From Actinomycetota bacterium (lineage in GTDB: Bacteria > Actinomycetota > Actinomycetes > S36-B12 > CAIYMF01): 64,000 nucleotides of DNA. Positions 7,479 through 49,565 of the stretch are shown here, one piece after another (within the stretch, counting starts at the first letter, position 1; the number at the start of each line of letters is the position of its first letter). The stretch spans positions 1 to 64,000 of the forward strand of contig JAPLAU010000008.1 in assembly GCA_026393115.1 (NCBI GenBank). Reading direction: 5' to 3'. The position numbers were made by a program, and so were the translations under genes. The notes below the pieces were generated by a model that was given only the letters and a program-made list of their open reading frames with translations, had not been told where the DNA came from and did not search any database.

Positions 7479-8102
7479 TTACGCGTGGTGCACGACGGGC
7501 GCTAGTCCATGGCTTCGCTCAACCGCGCCTTCGTCTCCACACACGACAAGCCAGTTGGCGAGCATGCGGTGCCCGCCCTCAGTCAGCACCGACTCGGGGT
7601 GAAACTGCACACCTTCAACCGCGAGTTCGCGATGCCGCACCGCCATCACGATGCCGGTATCAGTGTCGCCGGTGATCTCAAGTTCGGCCGGCACGGTGTC
7701 ACGTTCGACGGCCAAGGAGTGGTAGCGCGTGGCCGTGAACGGGTCGGGTAGTCCGGCGAGGACTCCCTTTCCAGAGTGGTGCACGAGCGACGTCTTTCCG
7801 TGCAGCAATTCGGGCGCGCGTGACACGACCGCGCCATAGGCGACAGCGATGGCTTGATGTCCGAGGCACACGCCGAACAGCGGCACTTTTCCGGCACACT
7901 CGCGCACCATCTCCAGGCACACTCCGGCTTGCTCGGGGGTACCCGGGCCAGGTGACAAGAGCACTCCGTCGTAAGTCAACGCCTGGCGAGGAAGGACGTC
8001 GTCATTGCGCCGCACCGTGACCTCAGCTCCCAATTGCGCGAGGTACTGCACGAGGTTGAATACGAAGGAGTCGTAGTTATCGACGACGAGGATGCGGGGC
8101 AC
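7479..8102 (-). CDS. pabA: Glutamine amidotransferase, anthranilate / aminodeoxychorismate synthase component II
   Basis: 207 aa class I glutamine amidotransferase that supplies ammonia to a chorismate-using synthase. Visible motifs: N-terminal VDNYDSFVFNL, oxyanion loop SPGPGTPEQAG, nucleophile Cys79 in FGVCLGHQ, and His168/Glu170 in FHPES. It starts at GTG 8102, divergent from crgA. It stands alone here without a trpE or pabB partner, so folate (pabA) and tryptophan (trpG) roles, or a shared amphibolic one, cannot be separated. This place between pknB and crgA is conserved in Actinobacteria. Confidence 0.9.
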   Translation of the reverse strand: MPRILVVDNYDSFVFNLVQYLAQLGAEVTVRRNDDVLPRQALTYDGVLLSPGPGTPEQAGVCLEMVRECAGKVPLFGVCLGHQAIAVAYGAVVSRAPELLHGKTSLVHHSGKGVLAGLPDPFTATRYHSLAVERDTVPAELEITGDTDTGIVMAVRHRELAVEGVQFHPESVLTEGGHRMLANWLVVCGDEGAVERSHGLAPVVHHA

Positions 8103-8140
8103 GTACCCATCTTCTCACTGTGGGCAGGTACTCTCATGGT

Positions 8141-8422
8141 GTGCCAGAGTCGAAGCCGCGTCAGAAGACCCCCTACGTGCCGCCGCCCAAGAAGAAGGAC
8201 CCGGTCAAACTGGGGCCTTCCCGCTGGGTAGCCCCCACCATGGTGGCTTTATTTGTGCTCGGTCTGATCTGGATCGTGGTGTTCTATATCGCCGGATCCG
8301 ACGTCACCAGCGTCCCTCTCATGGGCGCGATCGCAGCGTTGCCCCACGGCAACCTGTGGAACGTTTTGGTCGGATTTGGTCTCATCGGCGGCGGTTTCAT
8401 CGTCGCGACACGCTGGCGCTAG
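8141..8422 (+). CDS. crgA: Cell division protein CrgA
   Basis: About 93 aa with two membrane segments (VAPTMVALFVLGLIWIVVFY and LWNVLVGFGLIGGGFIVA) after a basic N-terminus, ending TRWR as typical for the family. CrgA recruits and coordinates septal PBPs with FtsZ-ring proteins in Actinobacteria. I prefer GTG 8141 (VPESKPRQK) over the in-frame GTG at 8120, because family members start close to this lysine-rich stretch and 8141 leaves more room for divergent promoters. Divergent from pabA by only 38 bp. Confidence 0.9.
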   Translation: MPESKPRQKTPYVPPPKKKDPVKLGPSRWVAPTMVALFVLGLIWIVVFYIAGSDVTSVPLMGAIAALPHGNLWNVLVGFGLIGGGFIVATRWR

Positions 8423-8438
8423 TCGGGAAGTGCGTCCC

Positions 8439-8460
8439 TGAATCACACCGTTGTGATTCA
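8439..8460. terminator. Perfect 9-bp hairpin between convergent crgA and rhomboid gene
   Basis: TGAATCACA and TGTGATTCA form an uninterrupted stem around a CCGT loop. It lies 17 bases after the crgA stop and 33 bases after the rhomboid stop, so it could end transcription from both sides. There is no U-run, so a palindromic protein-binding site is the alternative. Confidence 0.55.
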
Positions 8461-8468
8461 TCCCCAGC

Positions 8469-8489
8469 TGTGGATAACCCTGTGGATAA
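8469..8489 (+). promoter_or_regulatory. Two tandem consensus DnaA boxes outside oriC
   Basis: Two exact TGTGGATAA nonamers start at 8469 and 8481, in the same orientation and 12 bp apart, in the crgA-rhomboid intergenic space. This is about 35 kb from oriC. Exact boxes at one-turn spacing suggest a DnaA-binding or titration site; function is inferred. Confidence 0.7.
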
Positions 8490-8492
8490 CTC

Positions 8493-9371
8493 TTAGGCGG
8501 GGATTCCGGGAATCGCGTCGAGCATGGCGTGGAGTTCGGCCGTTCGCCACATCGTGATCATGACCAGCAGGCCGAGAATCGCCAGAACTCCCAGAGTTTG
8601 CCACAGCAGCCTGCTCGCCCGCGGGGCGTAGACCATCACGGCGGCAACGGCGGCTCCCGTTGCCAGACCACCCAGATGCGCCCGCCAGTCGATTCCGCCA
8701 CCAACGAACCCAATGGCCACGTTGATGCCGATCAGGATCAGCACCTGACGAACGTCGAAGCCCACCTGACGGCCAGCCACCACCAAGGCACCCATGACAC
8801 CGAAGATCGCCCCACTGGCTCCCACACTGAGGGTGAGGGGTGCAGAGAAGGCGTACGAGGCCACAGCGCCACCAAGACCGGCCACCAGATAAAGCACGAG
8901 GAAGCGCCCGTGACCCAGAATCCGCTCAACCTGCGGCCCGATCGTCCAGAGCACCAGCATGTTGAAACCGATATGCAGCAGATTGCCATGCAAGAACATC
9001 GAGGTTGGCAGACGCCAGATTTCACCGTTGAGGGCAATGTCCGGCGGATACATACCAAAGCGCCCGGTCACCTGATCGACGCCAATGAGGAATTCGAGTG
9101 CGAACACCACCACGCAGATACCGACCAGCACCATCGAGACAATCGGCCTCTCGCCGATAGGAGCCCCGGCCGCTGTGGTGGGCATCCGCTGAGTCGCTCG
9201 GCCTTCGGCCACACATTCTGGACACTGGAAACCCACCGACGCGCTAATCATGCAGTCCGGACAAATGGGCCGCCCGCATCGCGTGCACGAGATGTACGTC
9301 TCGCGGTCGGGGTGGCGGTAACAGTGTGGGGCGGTGCCAAACGAGCTCTGGCCCGGCATTGGCACACTCAC
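8493..9371 (-). CDS. Rhomboid-family intramembrane serine protease with N-terminal zinc-binding domain
   Basis: 292 aa. Residues about 17-56 hold paired Cys/His motifs (CxxCGRPICPDC, CPEC) like a B-box zinc finger. Six or more membrane segments follow. The catalytic dyad is Ser186 in GASGAIFG and His232 in RAHLGGLATG; the HGNLLHIGFNM loop is also typical. It cleaves membrane proteins within the bilayer; the substrate is unknown. The next gene upstream overlaps its start by four bases, so the two are probably co-transcribed. A rhomboid gene near crgA and ppiA is normal in Actinobacteria. Confidence 0.93.
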   Translation of the reverse strand: MSVPMPGQSSFGTAPHCYRHPDRETYISCTRCGRPICPDCMISASVGFQCPECVAEGRATQRMPTTAAGAPIGERPIVSMVLVGICVVVFALEFLIGVDQVTGRFGMYPPDIALNGEIWRLPTSMFLHGNLLHIGFNMLVLWTIGPQVERILGHGRFLVLYLVAGLGGAVASYAFSAPLTLSVGASGAIFGVMGALVVAGRQVGFDVRQVLILIGINVAIGFVGGGIDWRAHLGGLATGAAVAAVMVYAPRASRLLWQTLGVLAILGLLVMITMWRTAELHAMLDAIPGIPA

Positions 9372-10789
9372 GATGATCCGTCCTCTCGCTCGCGCAGCGC
9401 GTTCTTCTTCTGCTCGAGATCTCTGAAAAAGTCCGATTCAGCGATCGCGCTTGCCTCTTCGGCCACCTTCTGACGATCGATGACCACCGTCAATTTCGTC
9501 ACCTGCTCACGCAGTTTGCGCTCACGTTCGACAATCTCAGTTCCCATCCGTTGGAATGCCCGCGCCAAGGTTCCCACCTCATCGCGTCGCGCGGCCGCAT
9601 CATCGAGCATCGTCGGATCGAAGCTGTCCTGCTCAAGAGCGGTGGCAGCCTTCGTCATCGTCTCAACCGGACGAACGATGCGTCGGCTCGCTAGTAAGCC
9701 AATCAGCAGACCGAGCCCAAGGACGCCCAAGCTCAGCAGCGCCTGCCGCACCGCCTGGCTGTTGCCCGGCGCATCAACTTCTGCTTGTGGCACCGCCGAT
9801 ACGAGGGTCCACCCCAGCTTGGGGAGAGATGACACAACCATGCTCCACGGCTGCTGTACACCCGTGAAGCCAGCTTGTTGGGTGGTGCGCACAATCTGGG
9901 CCGAGTCAGTGGGCGCTTGAGCCACCAGACTTGATGCCAACGTCTTTCCCCAGTCGGTGCTCTCGAGCGACGACAGATCGCGGTCACTGGGCTGCACCAG
10001 AACCTTGCCATTCTTGTCGAGCACGAACAGCAGACCGTTGTCGGTGAAATCTATCTTGCTGAAGGACTCACCAAGTGCTTGCTTAGTTGCCTCGAGACGA
10101 GTGGCAGCTTCCTTATCGATGTCATCGACGTAGACACCGGTGCCGATCATCCAGTTCCAGGGCGCGTACTTCAGCACGTACCCAACCTTGGCTGAAGGAT
10201 TCTCTTCGTTGAGTTTTACCCAGGCGTAGTCGAGATATCCGCTGCCCTTCTCATTGGCGATGTTCAGCAAATCGCGCACGACGAATACCCCATTGGGATC
10301 TTGCATCGACATGAGGTTCTTGCCCTGAAACTTGGGGTTGGGGTGTGCGATCGCTGTGCCCGTGCTGTTGTAGGCAAAGAAGTAATCATCTTTCCGAAAT
10401 CGCACGCCCTTGATAACCGCGAGCCCAGCCTTCTGCGCCTGAGCCTCGGTAATCTCACCGGCCGCTGCCGAGGCACGCAGTTGATCGAGTGCGGTAACGA
10501 TCGGCGATGCAACGTCCTTCAGCTCAGCCTTACGCACATCCATGGCCGTGGTACGGGCACGCTGTGTGTCGGCGTAGGCCTGATCGATCAACAACACGGT
10601 CGACCGTTGAGCGTTGGCCATCGCAGCAGCTGCGTCTGCCTCCGACGCATTGCGAGCTGCAAGGGCGGAATACACGGCCGTGACCAAACCACTGACAATC
10701 AGCACGATGGCGATCAGCATCGCGAGCCGCGACGACAACGACGACCAACGCGTGCCCTGAGTTGTCTCGGTTACCCGGTCATCCGCCAT
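9368..10789 (-). CDS. Cache-HAMP membrane sensor without output domain
   Basis: About 473 aa from ATG 10789. An N-terminal membrane segment (about 20-42) precedes an outside helical plus single Cache region (motifs DDYFFAYNSTGTAIAHPNP, NWMIGTGVYVDDI), a second membrane segment, and a HAMP domain (RRIVRPVETMTKAA onward). The C-terminus is a coiled coil ending near ESDFFRDLEQKKNALRE. There is no methyl-accepting, kinase or cyclase domain, so it is not a complete chemoreceptor. It overlaps the rhomboid start by 4 bp. The upstream in-frame extension to 10966 looks non-coding and includes the inverted-repeat copy. Confidence 0.85.
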   Translation of the reverse strand: MADDRVTETTQGTRWSSLSSRLAMLIAIVLIVSGLVTAVYSALAARNASEADAAAAMANAQRSTVLLIDQAYADTQRARTTAMDVRKAELKDVASPIVTALDQLRASAAAGEITEAQAQKAGLAVIKGVRFRKDDYFFAYNSTGTAIAHPNPKFQGKNLMSMQDPNGVFVVRDLLNIANEKGSGYLDYAWVKLNEENPSAKVGYVLKYAPWNWMIGTGVYVDDIDKEAATRLEATKQALGESFSKIDFTDNGLLFVLDKNGKVLVQPSDRDLSSLESTDWGKTLASSLVAQAPTDSAQIVRTTQQAGFTGVQQPWSMVVSSLPKLGWTLVSAVPQAEVDAPGNSQAVRQALLSLGVLGLGLLIGLLASRRIVRPVETMTKAATALEQDSFDPTMLDDAAARRDEVGTLARAFQRMGTEIVERERKLREQVTKLTVVIDRQKVAEEASAIAESDFFRDLEQKKNALREREDGSS

Positions 10790-42991: not shown

Positions 42992-43340
42992 AAGATCTCC
43001 CTTGAGGGGTGCTGCGCGGTGGAGGAGCCTGTCATTCCCGGTATGCACAGGAAGGGATCCCACTGCTGTGTGGATGTCATTCGATAGTTAAGTGTCATCT
43101 TCGTCTTAGCGCCTGTGGATGCTGTGGATAAGTAACGCGAGGGCAGGTCAGCCAGCGTGTCGCACTCCCCAGACCCTGTGGATAGAGCAGAAGCGATCGG
43201 TGGATGACTGTGGGCAGTGCGGGGGCTTATTGCAGACCCGAGTGGAGGAGTACCCGGTTGTCCACAGACACGGCGTGTAGTGGAGGGAGTGACTGCGAGG
43301 GAATAGCGGTTCATCCACAGACTGCTCCCCATCCTGTGGA
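42992..43340. other. oriC: Origin of replication, dnaA-dnaN intergenic part
   Basis: 349 bp non-coding with a cluster of DnaA boxes. TGTGGATAA at 43123-43131 is exact. Near matches occur at 43069, 43114, 43177 (TGTGGATAG), 43258 (TTGTCCACA), 43311 (TCATCCACA) and 43335 (TGTGGATCA). A relatively AT-rich segment at about 43074-43110 is the best candidate for the unwinding element. Actinobacterial oriC normally lies here. Confidence 0.9.
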
Positions 43341-44801
43341 TCATCCCTGCCGGGCTTGGGAACGGATACGTGAAGTGAGGTCAGCGACCTGGTTGTACAG
43401 GCTGCGTCGCTCGGCCATCAACTGACGAATCTTGCGATCAGCGTGCATGACCGTTGTGTGGTCACGGTTACCGAATTGTTGACCAATCTTGGGTAGTGAA
43501 AGGTCGGTGAGTTCGCGGCAGAGGTACATGGCGATCTGGCGGGCCGTGACCAGGACGCGGGAACGAGAAGACCCACAGAGGTCGTCGATCGTGACGCCGA
43601 AGTACGACGCGGTCTGGGCCATGATGATGGCCGCCGTGATCTCAGGGCCGGTTTGGTCGGGAATGAGATCTTTCAGGACGATTTCAGCCAGCGGAAGGTC
43701 AACGGGCTGCCGGTTGAGGTTGGCGAAGGCCGTGACCCGAATGAGGGCGCCTTCAAGTTCACGAATGTTGGTCGAAATCTTTGAAGCAATGTATTCGAGT
43801 ACCTCGGGAGGCACCGTGAGTCGCTCCTGCAGGGTCTTCTTGCGCAGAATGGCAATACGGGTCTCGAGGTCAGGGGGCTGAACGTCGGTGATCAGGCCCC
43901 ATTCAAACCGTGAGCGCATGCGGTCTTCGAAGTCTTGCAACTGCTTGGGTGGAAGGTCGCTCGTGACGACGATTTGTTTGTTGGCGTTGTGCAGGGTGTT
44001 GAAGGTGTGGAAGAACTCTTCCTGCGTCTGCACCTTGCCGGACAGGAACTGAATGTCGTCGACGAGGAGAACATCAACGTCGCGGTAGCGGCGTTGGAAG
44101 GCCGCCGCTTTGTCGTCACGAATCGAGTTAATGAACTCGTTCGTGAACTCCTCGGAACTGACATAGCGAACCCTGGCGCCGGCATACAAGCTGCGGGTGT
44201 AGTGCCCAATCGCGTGCAACAGGTGGGTTTTACCCAGTCCCGACTCGCCATAAATGAAGAGCGGGTTGTACGCCTTCGCGGGCTGCTCGGCCACGGCCAC
44301 CGCGGCGGCATGGGCGAAGCGGTTGCTCGAACCAATGACGAAGGTGTCGAACACATACTTGGGATTGAGGCGGCTGCCTTCATCTGAACGAGTATCAGGT
44401 GAACCCGTACCTGGTCGGGTGAAGTCCGGACTCAGCGCTTGACCGCCAGTCAGAGGGAAGTCTTCGACCACGGGAGTGGGTTCGGCGTACGTGGCGTCAG
44501 CCAACTCATCGGTGGCATCTTCATCCAGGCTCGGGGCAATCGAGGGATCAACCGTGACGGCGATGCGAATTTCGCGACCCAAAGTCTTAGACAGGGCGGC
44601 GACGACCACGGGCCGGAGGCGAGTTTCGAGGACGTCTTTGGTGAAGTCATTGGGAGCTGCCAACAGGGCGGTGTCTTCGACCAGGCCCAGGGGACGGGTG
44701 AGATTAACGAAGGCGCGATGCTGGGGGGTCATGTCGGTCTCGTTCATCGAGGCAACGGCCTTGGCCCAGAGGTCAGACAGATCAACGATCATTTCGGTCA
44801 T
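43341..44801 (-). CDS. dnaA: Chromosomal replication initiator DnaA
   Basis: 486 aa. Domain I (about 1-90), a variable acidic linker II, the AAA+ domain III with Walker [18 protein letters not shown] and Walker [14 protein letters not shown], and DNA-binding domain IV with the DnaA signature [18 protein letters not shown] 44801 has GGAAGGA about nine bases upstream. It binds the boxes on both sides of its own gene. The initial residues MTEMIVDL leave ATG 44792 as an alternative. Confidence 0.98.
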
Positions 44802-45243
44802 GCGCTACGTCCTTCCACCAGTCTCCAAGACCAGCCCACGAGGGCCAAGGCCCAGAGGTACAAACCGGACGAACCGCCCATGTCCACATGGTTATCCACA
44901 GGCTGTGGACGATGAACAGCGACCGGGGGAAGACACCAGGGCCACGATCGGGTGACCGTGAACCAGCGATGAACCGGAAGGTTGACACTAGTCGGTGTTT
45001 GGGCCCCCTATCAACCGCTATCCACAGTTGATTCTGAGATTTGCGGCGTGTCGTGCACAAGATCACAGTCAGGTACGCGACGATGAGCGATTACCTATCA
45101 ACCGGTGGTTCAGGGTTCCAGTTTGACCCGGGAGTCGTCGCGATCGTACGGTAGGTAGTCGCGAGCACGCCTAGCGTGCCCACCCAGCAGACCAATCGCT
45201 GGCCGAACGCGTCGGTCAGCACCTAATAGTGGAGTCACAAGAC
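44802..45243. promoter_or_regulatory. dnaA-rpmH intergenic region with DnaA boxes
   Basis: 442 bp between divergent dnaA and rpmH. An exact DnaA box TTATCCACA is at 44892-44900. Weaker boxes are at 44880 (ATGTCCACA), 44904 (TGTGGACGA) and 45018 (CTATCCACA). It should hold the divergent promoters of dnaA and of the rpmH-rnpA operon, with dnaA autoregulation likely. No further gene is seen; short frames on the minus strand are spurious. Confidence 0.75.
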
Positions 45244-47786: not shown

Positions 47787-47802
47787 CGTTTCACGTGAAA
47801 CC
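47787..47802. promoter_or_regulatory. parS: parS centromere site 1
   Basis: CGTTTCACGTGAAACC matches the parS consensus TGTTTCACGTGAAACA at 14 of 16 positions, with the inner 14-bp palindrome intact. The GTG start codon of rsmG (47795) lies in the middle of the site. ParB should bind it. Confidence 0.95.
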
Positions 47803-48615: not shown

Positions 48616-49565
48616 CGAGCGACAATGTTTCACGTGAAACGGCCGACTACGGCGACAATCTCGGCGACACTCCCCTCGCCGCCGCAGCCGCATCGGCCGT
48701 TAACCTGACCTCGGGGCGCTTGCCAGCACTGCCACGGCCCGCGGAGACCCGCGTGATCGTCGTTGCCAATCAGAAGGGTGGAGTCGGGAAGACGACCTCC
48801 ACCGTGAATTTGGCAGCTGCGCTCGCACTCCAGCACCTTGAGGTGCTCGTGATTGACCTTGACCCCCAAGGAAATGCGTCGACGGCCCTTCGAATCGATC
48901 ATCACGGTGATGTTCCTGACATTGATGACGTGATCGTGGGAGGCGACCCGTTGAGTGACGTGGTGGTGCCTGCACCGGACTTCACCGGCTTGTGGTGTGC
49001 GCCGGCATCAATCGACCTCGCGGGTGCCGAAATCAGTCTTGTACCCATGGTGGCTCGCGAATCACGATTGGCTAAGGCGTTACAGCACTACCTCACCGAG
49101 CATGAGCAACGCCACGGCCGTCGCCTCGATGTGGTGCTCATCGACTGTCCACCCAGCCTGGGTCTTCTCACGGTGAATGCTTTCGTCGCAGGCCAGGAAG
49201 TACTCATCCCGGTTCAGTGTGAGTACTACGCACTCGAAGGTCTAGGCCAGCTACTGAGCAATCTCGATCTCATCCGCGCTCACTTGAATCCCCACCTGCA
49301 CGTGTCGCATCTGCTGCTTACCATGCTCGACGCGCGAACCCGACTTTCGGCAGAAGTGGTGGCGCAGGTGCGCGAGCACTTCGGAGATCTGGTGCTGCCG
49401 ACCGCGATTCCGCGCTCGGTTCGAGTGTCGGAAGCGCCCAGTTACCAGCAAACGGTGCTGACCTACGATCCAGGTTCCCCGGGTGCCTTGGCCTACCTCA
49501 ATGCGTCGCGAGAAATGATCCTGTGGAAACTGTACGCCAGTTATCCACAGGATCAAACATACTAA
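48612..49565 (+). CDS. parA: Chromosome partitioning ATPase ParA
   Basis: 317 aa. The deviant Walker A KGGVGKTT stands at 55-62, followed by [31 protein letters not shown] and [16 protein letters not shown]. The N-terminal NVSRET is encoded by parS site 2. It moves ParB-parS complexes using ATP-dependent nucleoid binding. Its 3' end holds an exact DnaA box. It overlaps the 44-aa peptide gene by four bases and precedes parB by 26 bp. Confidence 0.97.
48626..48641. promoter_or_regulatory. parS: parS centromere site 2
   Basis: TGTTTCACGTGAAACG matches the parS consensus at 15 of 16 positions. It lies within codons 5-10 of parA, encoding NVSRET. Sites in parA and at the rsmG start, about 840 bp apart, are usual near oriC. 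Confidence 0.97.
49541..49549. promoter_or_regulatory. Exact DnaA box inside the parA 3' end
   Basis: TTATCCACA falls in the last codons of parA, 43 bp before parB. It is an exact consensus box about 4.6 kb from the dnaA-rpmH boxes. It could couple parB expression or segregation to DnaA, or be a chance occurrence. Confidence 0.5.

Follow-up and report, generated by a model that had tools for sequence, protein, structure and literature searches.

Why two exact DnaA boxes should stand in tandem beside a cell division gene, far from the replication origin, is the question raised by the locus described here, which lies in a 64,000-nucleotide stretch of an actinomycete genome (the whole stretch analysed, hereafter the window). 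To our knowledge, the coupling of replication initiation to division in actinobacteria is poorly understood.

Layout of the crgA–rhomboid gap

The cell division protein gene crgA (8120–8422, plus strand; PF06781, E 8.1e-22) and a rhomboid protease gene (8493–9371, minus strand; PF01694, E 2.2e-36) are convergent and enclose a 70-bp gap that contains a palindrome and two exact DnaA boxes, in agreement with the position given in the first-pass annotation. The two TGTGGATAA boxes, described there as starting 12 bp apart, both lie on the plus strand (box II, 8469–8477; box III, 8481–8489) and are separated by 3 bp. The assertion that they are unlikely to arise by chance was also upheld, the window holding five exact boxes against 0.11 on average and no more than 2 in 100 dinucleotide shuffles. 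The perfect hairpin sequence reported to adjoin the boxes is indeed a perfect palindrome, TGAATCACA-CCGT-TGTGATTCA, at 8439–8460, with 9-bp arms free of mismatches. What had been overlooked is that this palindrome is, to judge from its sequence, a known kind of protein-binding site: its core, AATCACACCGTTGTGATT at 8441–8458, matches without a mismatch the operator AATnACAnnnnTGTnATT published for the MerR-type regulator McdR/ResR (passages of PMC9040748), an identification that is new here. Also absent from the annotation is a third, weak and inverted DnaA-like box (box I, TCATCCCCA, 8458–8466, minus strand; two mismatches to TTATCCACA), which runs opposite to boxes II and III and bridges the palindrome and the box pair, sharing the last base of the operator and ending 2 bp before box II. 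Box III begins at an offset of 40 bp from the operator start, which is also the most frequent offset of the boxes of relatives.

The dnaA reading frame (stop to stop) occupies about 43341–44804 on the minus strand, and 14 single-contig genomes begin with a relative of it at 54–72% identity. It is flanked by DnaA boxes with 0–1 mismatch at 43123–43343 and 44892–45026, which likely mark the oriC region. The crgA gap is situated about 36 kb from dnaA, close to the 35 kb from oriC estimated previously, and holds a DnaA-box cluster near but outside oriC. Fourteen of the 20 single-contig genomes whose start was examined begin at dnaA, and in all 14 of them crgA is found 10–131 kb from dnaA, distances that assume circular closure. 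Because the McdR motif (at most two mismatches) occurs within 400 bp of crgA in 7 of these 14 genomes and a DnaA box in 9, nearness to dnaA appears to be a property of the locus more than of the unit formed by motif and boxes. Elsewhere in the window, one exact DnaA box lies between parA-like and parB-like genes (49541–49549), and near these genes are two GTTTCACGTGAAAC sites (47788–47801 and 48627–48640), presumably parS-like.

The palindrome as a putative McdR/ResR operator

In mycobacteria, McdR (Rv1830) represses the division gene whiB2 via AATnACAnnnnTGTnATT, and binding of the purified Rv1830 protein to the whiB2 promoter has been described by a second group (passages of PMC9040748 and PMC10336103, respectively). 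The crgA site is the sole exact match to this palindrome in the 3.5-Mb genome that contains the window, in which five sites are found at one mismatch or fewer, against one for a reversed control pattern. As in mycobacteria, whiB2 has an McdR-like operator upstream of it, here with one mismatch and at a distance of about 50 bp (C30:46122–46139 of this genome; L130, 1499–1516), and no DnaA boxes adjoin this operator. Whereas the mycobacterial whiB2 operator is placed around the start point, that of the crgA gap has convergent genes on either side and DnaA boxes coupled to it; a scan of 8050–9450 for sigma-70-like promoters, covering this promoter type alone, found none, with 0.3 expected. Among the 99 genomes of the order, the palindrome pattern occurs with up to two mismatches in 44 and its reversed control gives no match, and relatives keep the palindrome as a sequence, beyond the mere pairing of a stem. 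Some matches to the pattern lie elsewhere, including upstream of whiB2 and nrdR (gene identities by tblastn). We regard the palindrome of the crgA gap as a putative McdR-binding site. Two other binders were considered and set aside, since the published palindrome of BldM (TCACcCgnncGgGTGA) and the published motif of FtsR both differ from it.

A candidate gene for McdR is present in the same genome, where a garA-like gene, ftsR (NF050798, E 3.1e-81), a BFN-domain gene and a MerR-type gene stand in this order. As FtsR corresponds to Rv1828 (passages of PMC6683498) and McdR to Rv1830, the MerR-type gene is taken from its position to be McdR, a presumed orthology by synteny. Searches of NCBIfam and the Protein Data Bank with the candidate returned weak MerR-family matches only. 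Strong matches to it (E <1e-37) are found in 93 of the 99 order genomes, with weak matches only in three and none in three, and they accompany the crgA-site motif in 66 of the 69 genomes having it (the exceptions being G008, G046 and G058). McdR being nearly universal in the order, this co-occurrence is uninformative.

McdR-like sites also occur away from crgA. At whiB2, none of nine scored sites has a DnaA box within −45 to +55, in a set that leaves out L141, L282 and L283 (loci short or off-centre). Upstream of nrdR (NrdR by tblastn), McdR-like palindromes (L110–L114, L122, L131 and L138) lie beside CTACTAGATGTAG, which we take to be NrdR-box-like, and seven of the eight operators are touched by a weak DnaA-like box. 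In two genomes of genus g4, the exact McdR motif is found together with DnaA-like boxes some 100 bp upstream of dnaX (L283 near 938 in G016; L282 near 1262 in G015), and this site is a second composite in both. In family f7, TTACACnnGTGTAA palindromes (L144, L146–L148, L150 and L151) are found, most of them in the neighbourhood of proC and a gene for a HAD-type phosphatase, and a similar palindrome near position 1510 of L121 and L128 overlaps the site where a small conserved gene, presumably DUF3263-like, starts. Finally, both genomes of the genus that includes the present one have a one-mismatch McdR motif flanked by genes for an MFS transporter and a secreted protein (L289, C17:11242 of the present genome; L290, G001:C117:5515).

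Conservation and geometry of the unit beside crgA

Of the 99 genomes of the order, 90 have an identified crgA, and all 90 were examined over the stretch from 0 to 300 bp 3′ of its stop codon. The McdR motif is exact in 23 of these 90 genomes, has at most one mismatch in 51 and at most two in 69; a DnaA box is exact in 44 and has at most one mismatch in 73; and the two occur together (at most two and one mismatches, respectively) in 67. In the control stretches 300–600, 600–900 and 900–1200 bp 3′ of the stop codon, the motif at the same threshold is found in 2/90, 0/86 and 1/84 genomes and the box in 3/90, 4/86 and 1/84, with no exact box in any of them. The body of crgA contains the motif in 0/88 and a box with up to one mismatch in 13/88, none exact, and the stretch 300–600 bp 5′ of the stop codon contains the motif in 4/90, such a box in 11/90 (exact in one) and both in three. 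Weak boxes are commoner in the 5′ control stretches than in the 3′ ones, and the four motif matches 5′ of the stop codon are relocated units. Composites are present in six of the seven families of the order, and the unit is absent at crgA in all four genomes of genus g6, though crgA and McdR are kept, as well as in several genomes of families f4 and f7. In one g6 genome (G034), the palindrome pattern lies on another contig. Lack of conservation in close relatives had been named as evidence against a meaningful site, and it applies to the exact tandem pair, which with its 3-bp gap has a single occurrence in the 3.51-Mb genome and is present in 2 of the 17 genomes of the family (this genome included), whereas the box cluster is widely kept.

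The conservation extends to other orders of the class. Of 148 class genomes, 146 have crgA, 13 of which belong to the same order and 133 to others, 129 of the latter being examined; the counts refer to 126 genomes, with G135, G160, G209 and G225 left out together with three too short for 400 bp. Within 400 bp of crgA, the motif is found in 79 of the 126 with up to two mismatches, in 53 with up to one and in 19 exactly, a DnaA box in 108 with up to one mismatch and in 59 exactly, and motif and box together in 74. The control stretches at 400–800 and 800–1200 bp give 1/125 and 1/124 for the motif, the same for motif and box together, and 6/125 and 6/124 for the box. Composites occur in 20 of the 29 other families examined. 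The unit is absent at crgA in 7 of 12 genomes of family f27, a lineage that keeps crgA and McdR, and families f20 and f22 (12 genomes each) keep DnaA boxes with no McdR motif within three mismatches. Among 80 named loci, crgA is present in 74, of which 18 have the motif and 71 a box; the 18 are from Jiangella, Nocardioides, Aeromicrobium and MAGs, with no Nonomuraea or Streptomyces. The Streptomyces loci L030 and L068 have a crgA gap with DnaA boxes and without the McdR motif. In these two loci and in family f22, the boxes face one another with some tens of bases between them.

Sites with at most two mismatches within 400 bp of crgA, 71 in the order and 81 in other orders, were used to describe the geometry. 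Measured from the operator start, the boxes begin most commonly at 39–42 bp (55 and 59 boxes in the two sets), followed by 26–30 and 16–18 bp; in several families the middle box is reversed (offset 30, minus strand). Of the sites having a box, 67 and 76 in the two sets, 11 and 5 are mirrored as whole units. The spacing of the boxes from the operator is thus rigid, over many families and in mirrored copies. Within one mismatch, the box I position agrees with a DnaA box at 10/71 and 25/81 sites, and within two at 50/71 and 71/81; its commonest letters in relatives are TCCCCA, not TCCACA. Because of this weakness and this consensus, box I may be no DnaA box at all.

The unit has also changed its side relative to crgA. 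Four genomes of one family (G059, G077, G079 and G084) have no 3′ unit and carry one 5′ of crgA instead; in all four, crgA is succeeded by a co-directional trpG, and three have the rhomboid gene ahead of crgA. In this gene order crgA is therefore inverted in place, and the unit has stayed in the gap. An extra 5′ motif (two mismatches, no box) is present in G028, which has the 3′ unit. At three loci (L007, L008 and L009), the rhomboid gene is 1.4–1.6 kb off and the unit still adjoins crgA.

Possible function and comparison with known DnaA loci

Considering the sequence and its conservation, we read the crgA gap as a DnaA-binding locus close to oriC that has McdR as its partner and works in the manner of datA or DARS, and assign a probability of about 50% to this reading. 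Part of the earlier proposal, a DnaA locus outside oriC, gains support from boxes that are found class-wide at crgA and lie near dnaA; box spacing speaks against a DARS in the strict sense. In the predicted mechanism, the gap would be a composite of a palindromic McdR/ResR operator held at fixed spacing from a DnaA-box cluster. Once the locus has been replicated, DnaA would soon load onto the tandem pair in a cooperative manner, and this loading would titrate DnaA or alter its nucleotide state. McdR, positioned at the edge of box I, would permit or block the DnaA assembly, whereby initiation capacity would be tied to the McdR–WhiB2 division regulator circuit. We infer that both proteins bind, cooperate or compete, and affect DnaA activity; competition is as possible as cooperation, because the weak box I overlaps the edge of the operator. 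As the paired layout recurs in many actinobacteria, a paired site of the DnaA/McdR type may help to tie chromosome copying to division, and McdR gains a candidate target outside promoters. More tentatively, we speculate that, class-wide in actinobacteria, a single rigid module near oriC serves for the joint assembly of McdR/ResR and DnaA or for competition between them, and that through it a division and DNA-repair regulator would set the availability or nucleotide state of DnaA, as a counterpart of DARS and datA with a different partner. Several findings count against a DnaA-binding locus of the datA or DARS kind with McdR as partner: box I is weak, the unit is lacking at crgA in lineages that retain crgA and McdR (g6 and part of f27), families f20 and f22 have boxes but no motif, weak boxes are commoner in the 5′ than in the 3′ control stretches, the motif is found in only 7 of the 14 genomes that begin at dnaA, and the unit keeps the company of crgA, which a pure titration site does not need.

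The same company would be expected if DnaA and McdR controlled transcription of crgA, an antisense RNA or a flanking gene and so linked replication to the CrgA level. The unit keeps to crgA class-wide, even at the loci with a distant rhomboid gene, and McdR acts on a division gene as a transcriptional repressor (passages of PMC9040748). However, crgA usually has the unit at its 3′ end, the scan of 8050–9450 detected no sigma-70-like promoter (other types being outside the scan), and the unit can be mirrored and stays put upon inversion of crgA. We consider such control rather unlikely. Mirroring and inversion likewise weaken the link to crgA expression or termination put forward in the first-pass annotation and make a crgA terminator or 3′ element unlikely. 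It is less probable still that McdR-only and DnaA-only sites merely share a conserved gap without a joint function: families f20 and f22 do keep the boxes without the motif, and none of the nine scored whiB2 sites is near a DnaA box, but the operator–box offset is constant across many families, mirrored copies included, and the composite recurs upstream of dnaX in two genomes.

The perfect 9-bp arms would suit a palindrome that is mainly an RNA hairpin, acting as a terminator or roadblock between the convergent genes. Among 43 exact-motif sites, one free arm pair is complementary in 24, against 18.4 in shuffles (P 0.01, kinship uncorrected), but over 152 sites the free arm positions are not kept complementary (82 against 80.4, no excess), and the RNA fold surpasses that of shuffles only to a moderate degree (z −1.9 and −1.4). 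By the criterion of a GC-rich stem plus T-run, no terminator-like site was found, a T-run being absent; what is conserved is the sequence, beyond pairing, with its match to the McdR operator, and the unit occurs also 5′ of crgA. The hairpin interpretation was accordingly given up as highly improbable. We attach just as little weight to the palindrome being a BldD operator in place of an McdR operator. BldD targets whiB in Streptomyces through the box TNAC(N)5GTNA, which has the same half sites (passages of PMC4151990), and the present genome encodes a BldD-like protein; nevertheless, the crgA site reads TNAC(N)6GTNA, and five genomes (G021, G022, G025, G028 and G029; at least 93% complete) keep the site without a BldD_C match. 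BldD was rejected as the binder on account of this central spacing of 6 and of these genomes.

In the open-access literature, we found no paper joining McdR/ResR/Rv1830 with a DnaA box or crgA and none on DARS together with actinobacteria; the terms crgA and DnaA are absent from the McdR papers PMC9040748 and PMC10336103, and in passages of PMC3937824 crgA appears in a reference only. The proposed DnaA-binding locus with McdR as its partner can be compared with known DnaA loci. A DARS is defined by three DnaA boxes, box I being opposite to II and III (passages of PMC5742627). The crgA unit has the topology of DARS1 and DARS2 of E. coli, though its box I is weak (two mismatches) and may not be a real DnaA box, and shares with DARS1 the II–III gap of 3 bp. 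However, its boxes I and II are separated by 2 bp, where DARS1 and apparently DARS2 have 5 bp, and because of this spacing strict DARS membership was rejected; the partner also differs, a MerR-type protein being proposed for the crgA unit in place of IHF/Fis. E. coli DnaA in vivo favours boxes 2–3 bp apart, and the "double DnaA box" of this bacterium consists of same-direction boxes 3 bp apart, as in the crgA gap, but these sites lack the McdR operator and lie mostly at promoters (passages of PMC11317965). In both S. coelicolor and B. subtilis, DnaA-box clusters near oriC serve to repress initiation at the wrong time (passages of PMC4585315 and PMC5742627). These datA-like clusters are, like the crgA unit, intergenic and near oriC, whereas the fixed McdR operator is an addition of the crgA unit. 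The published S. coelicolor cluster may itself lie near crgA. Finally, datA of E. coli, as described in passages of reviews, combines a DnaA-box cluster with a second DNA-binding protein, as is proposed for the crgA unit, this protein being IHF in datA and putatively McdR in the crgA gap.
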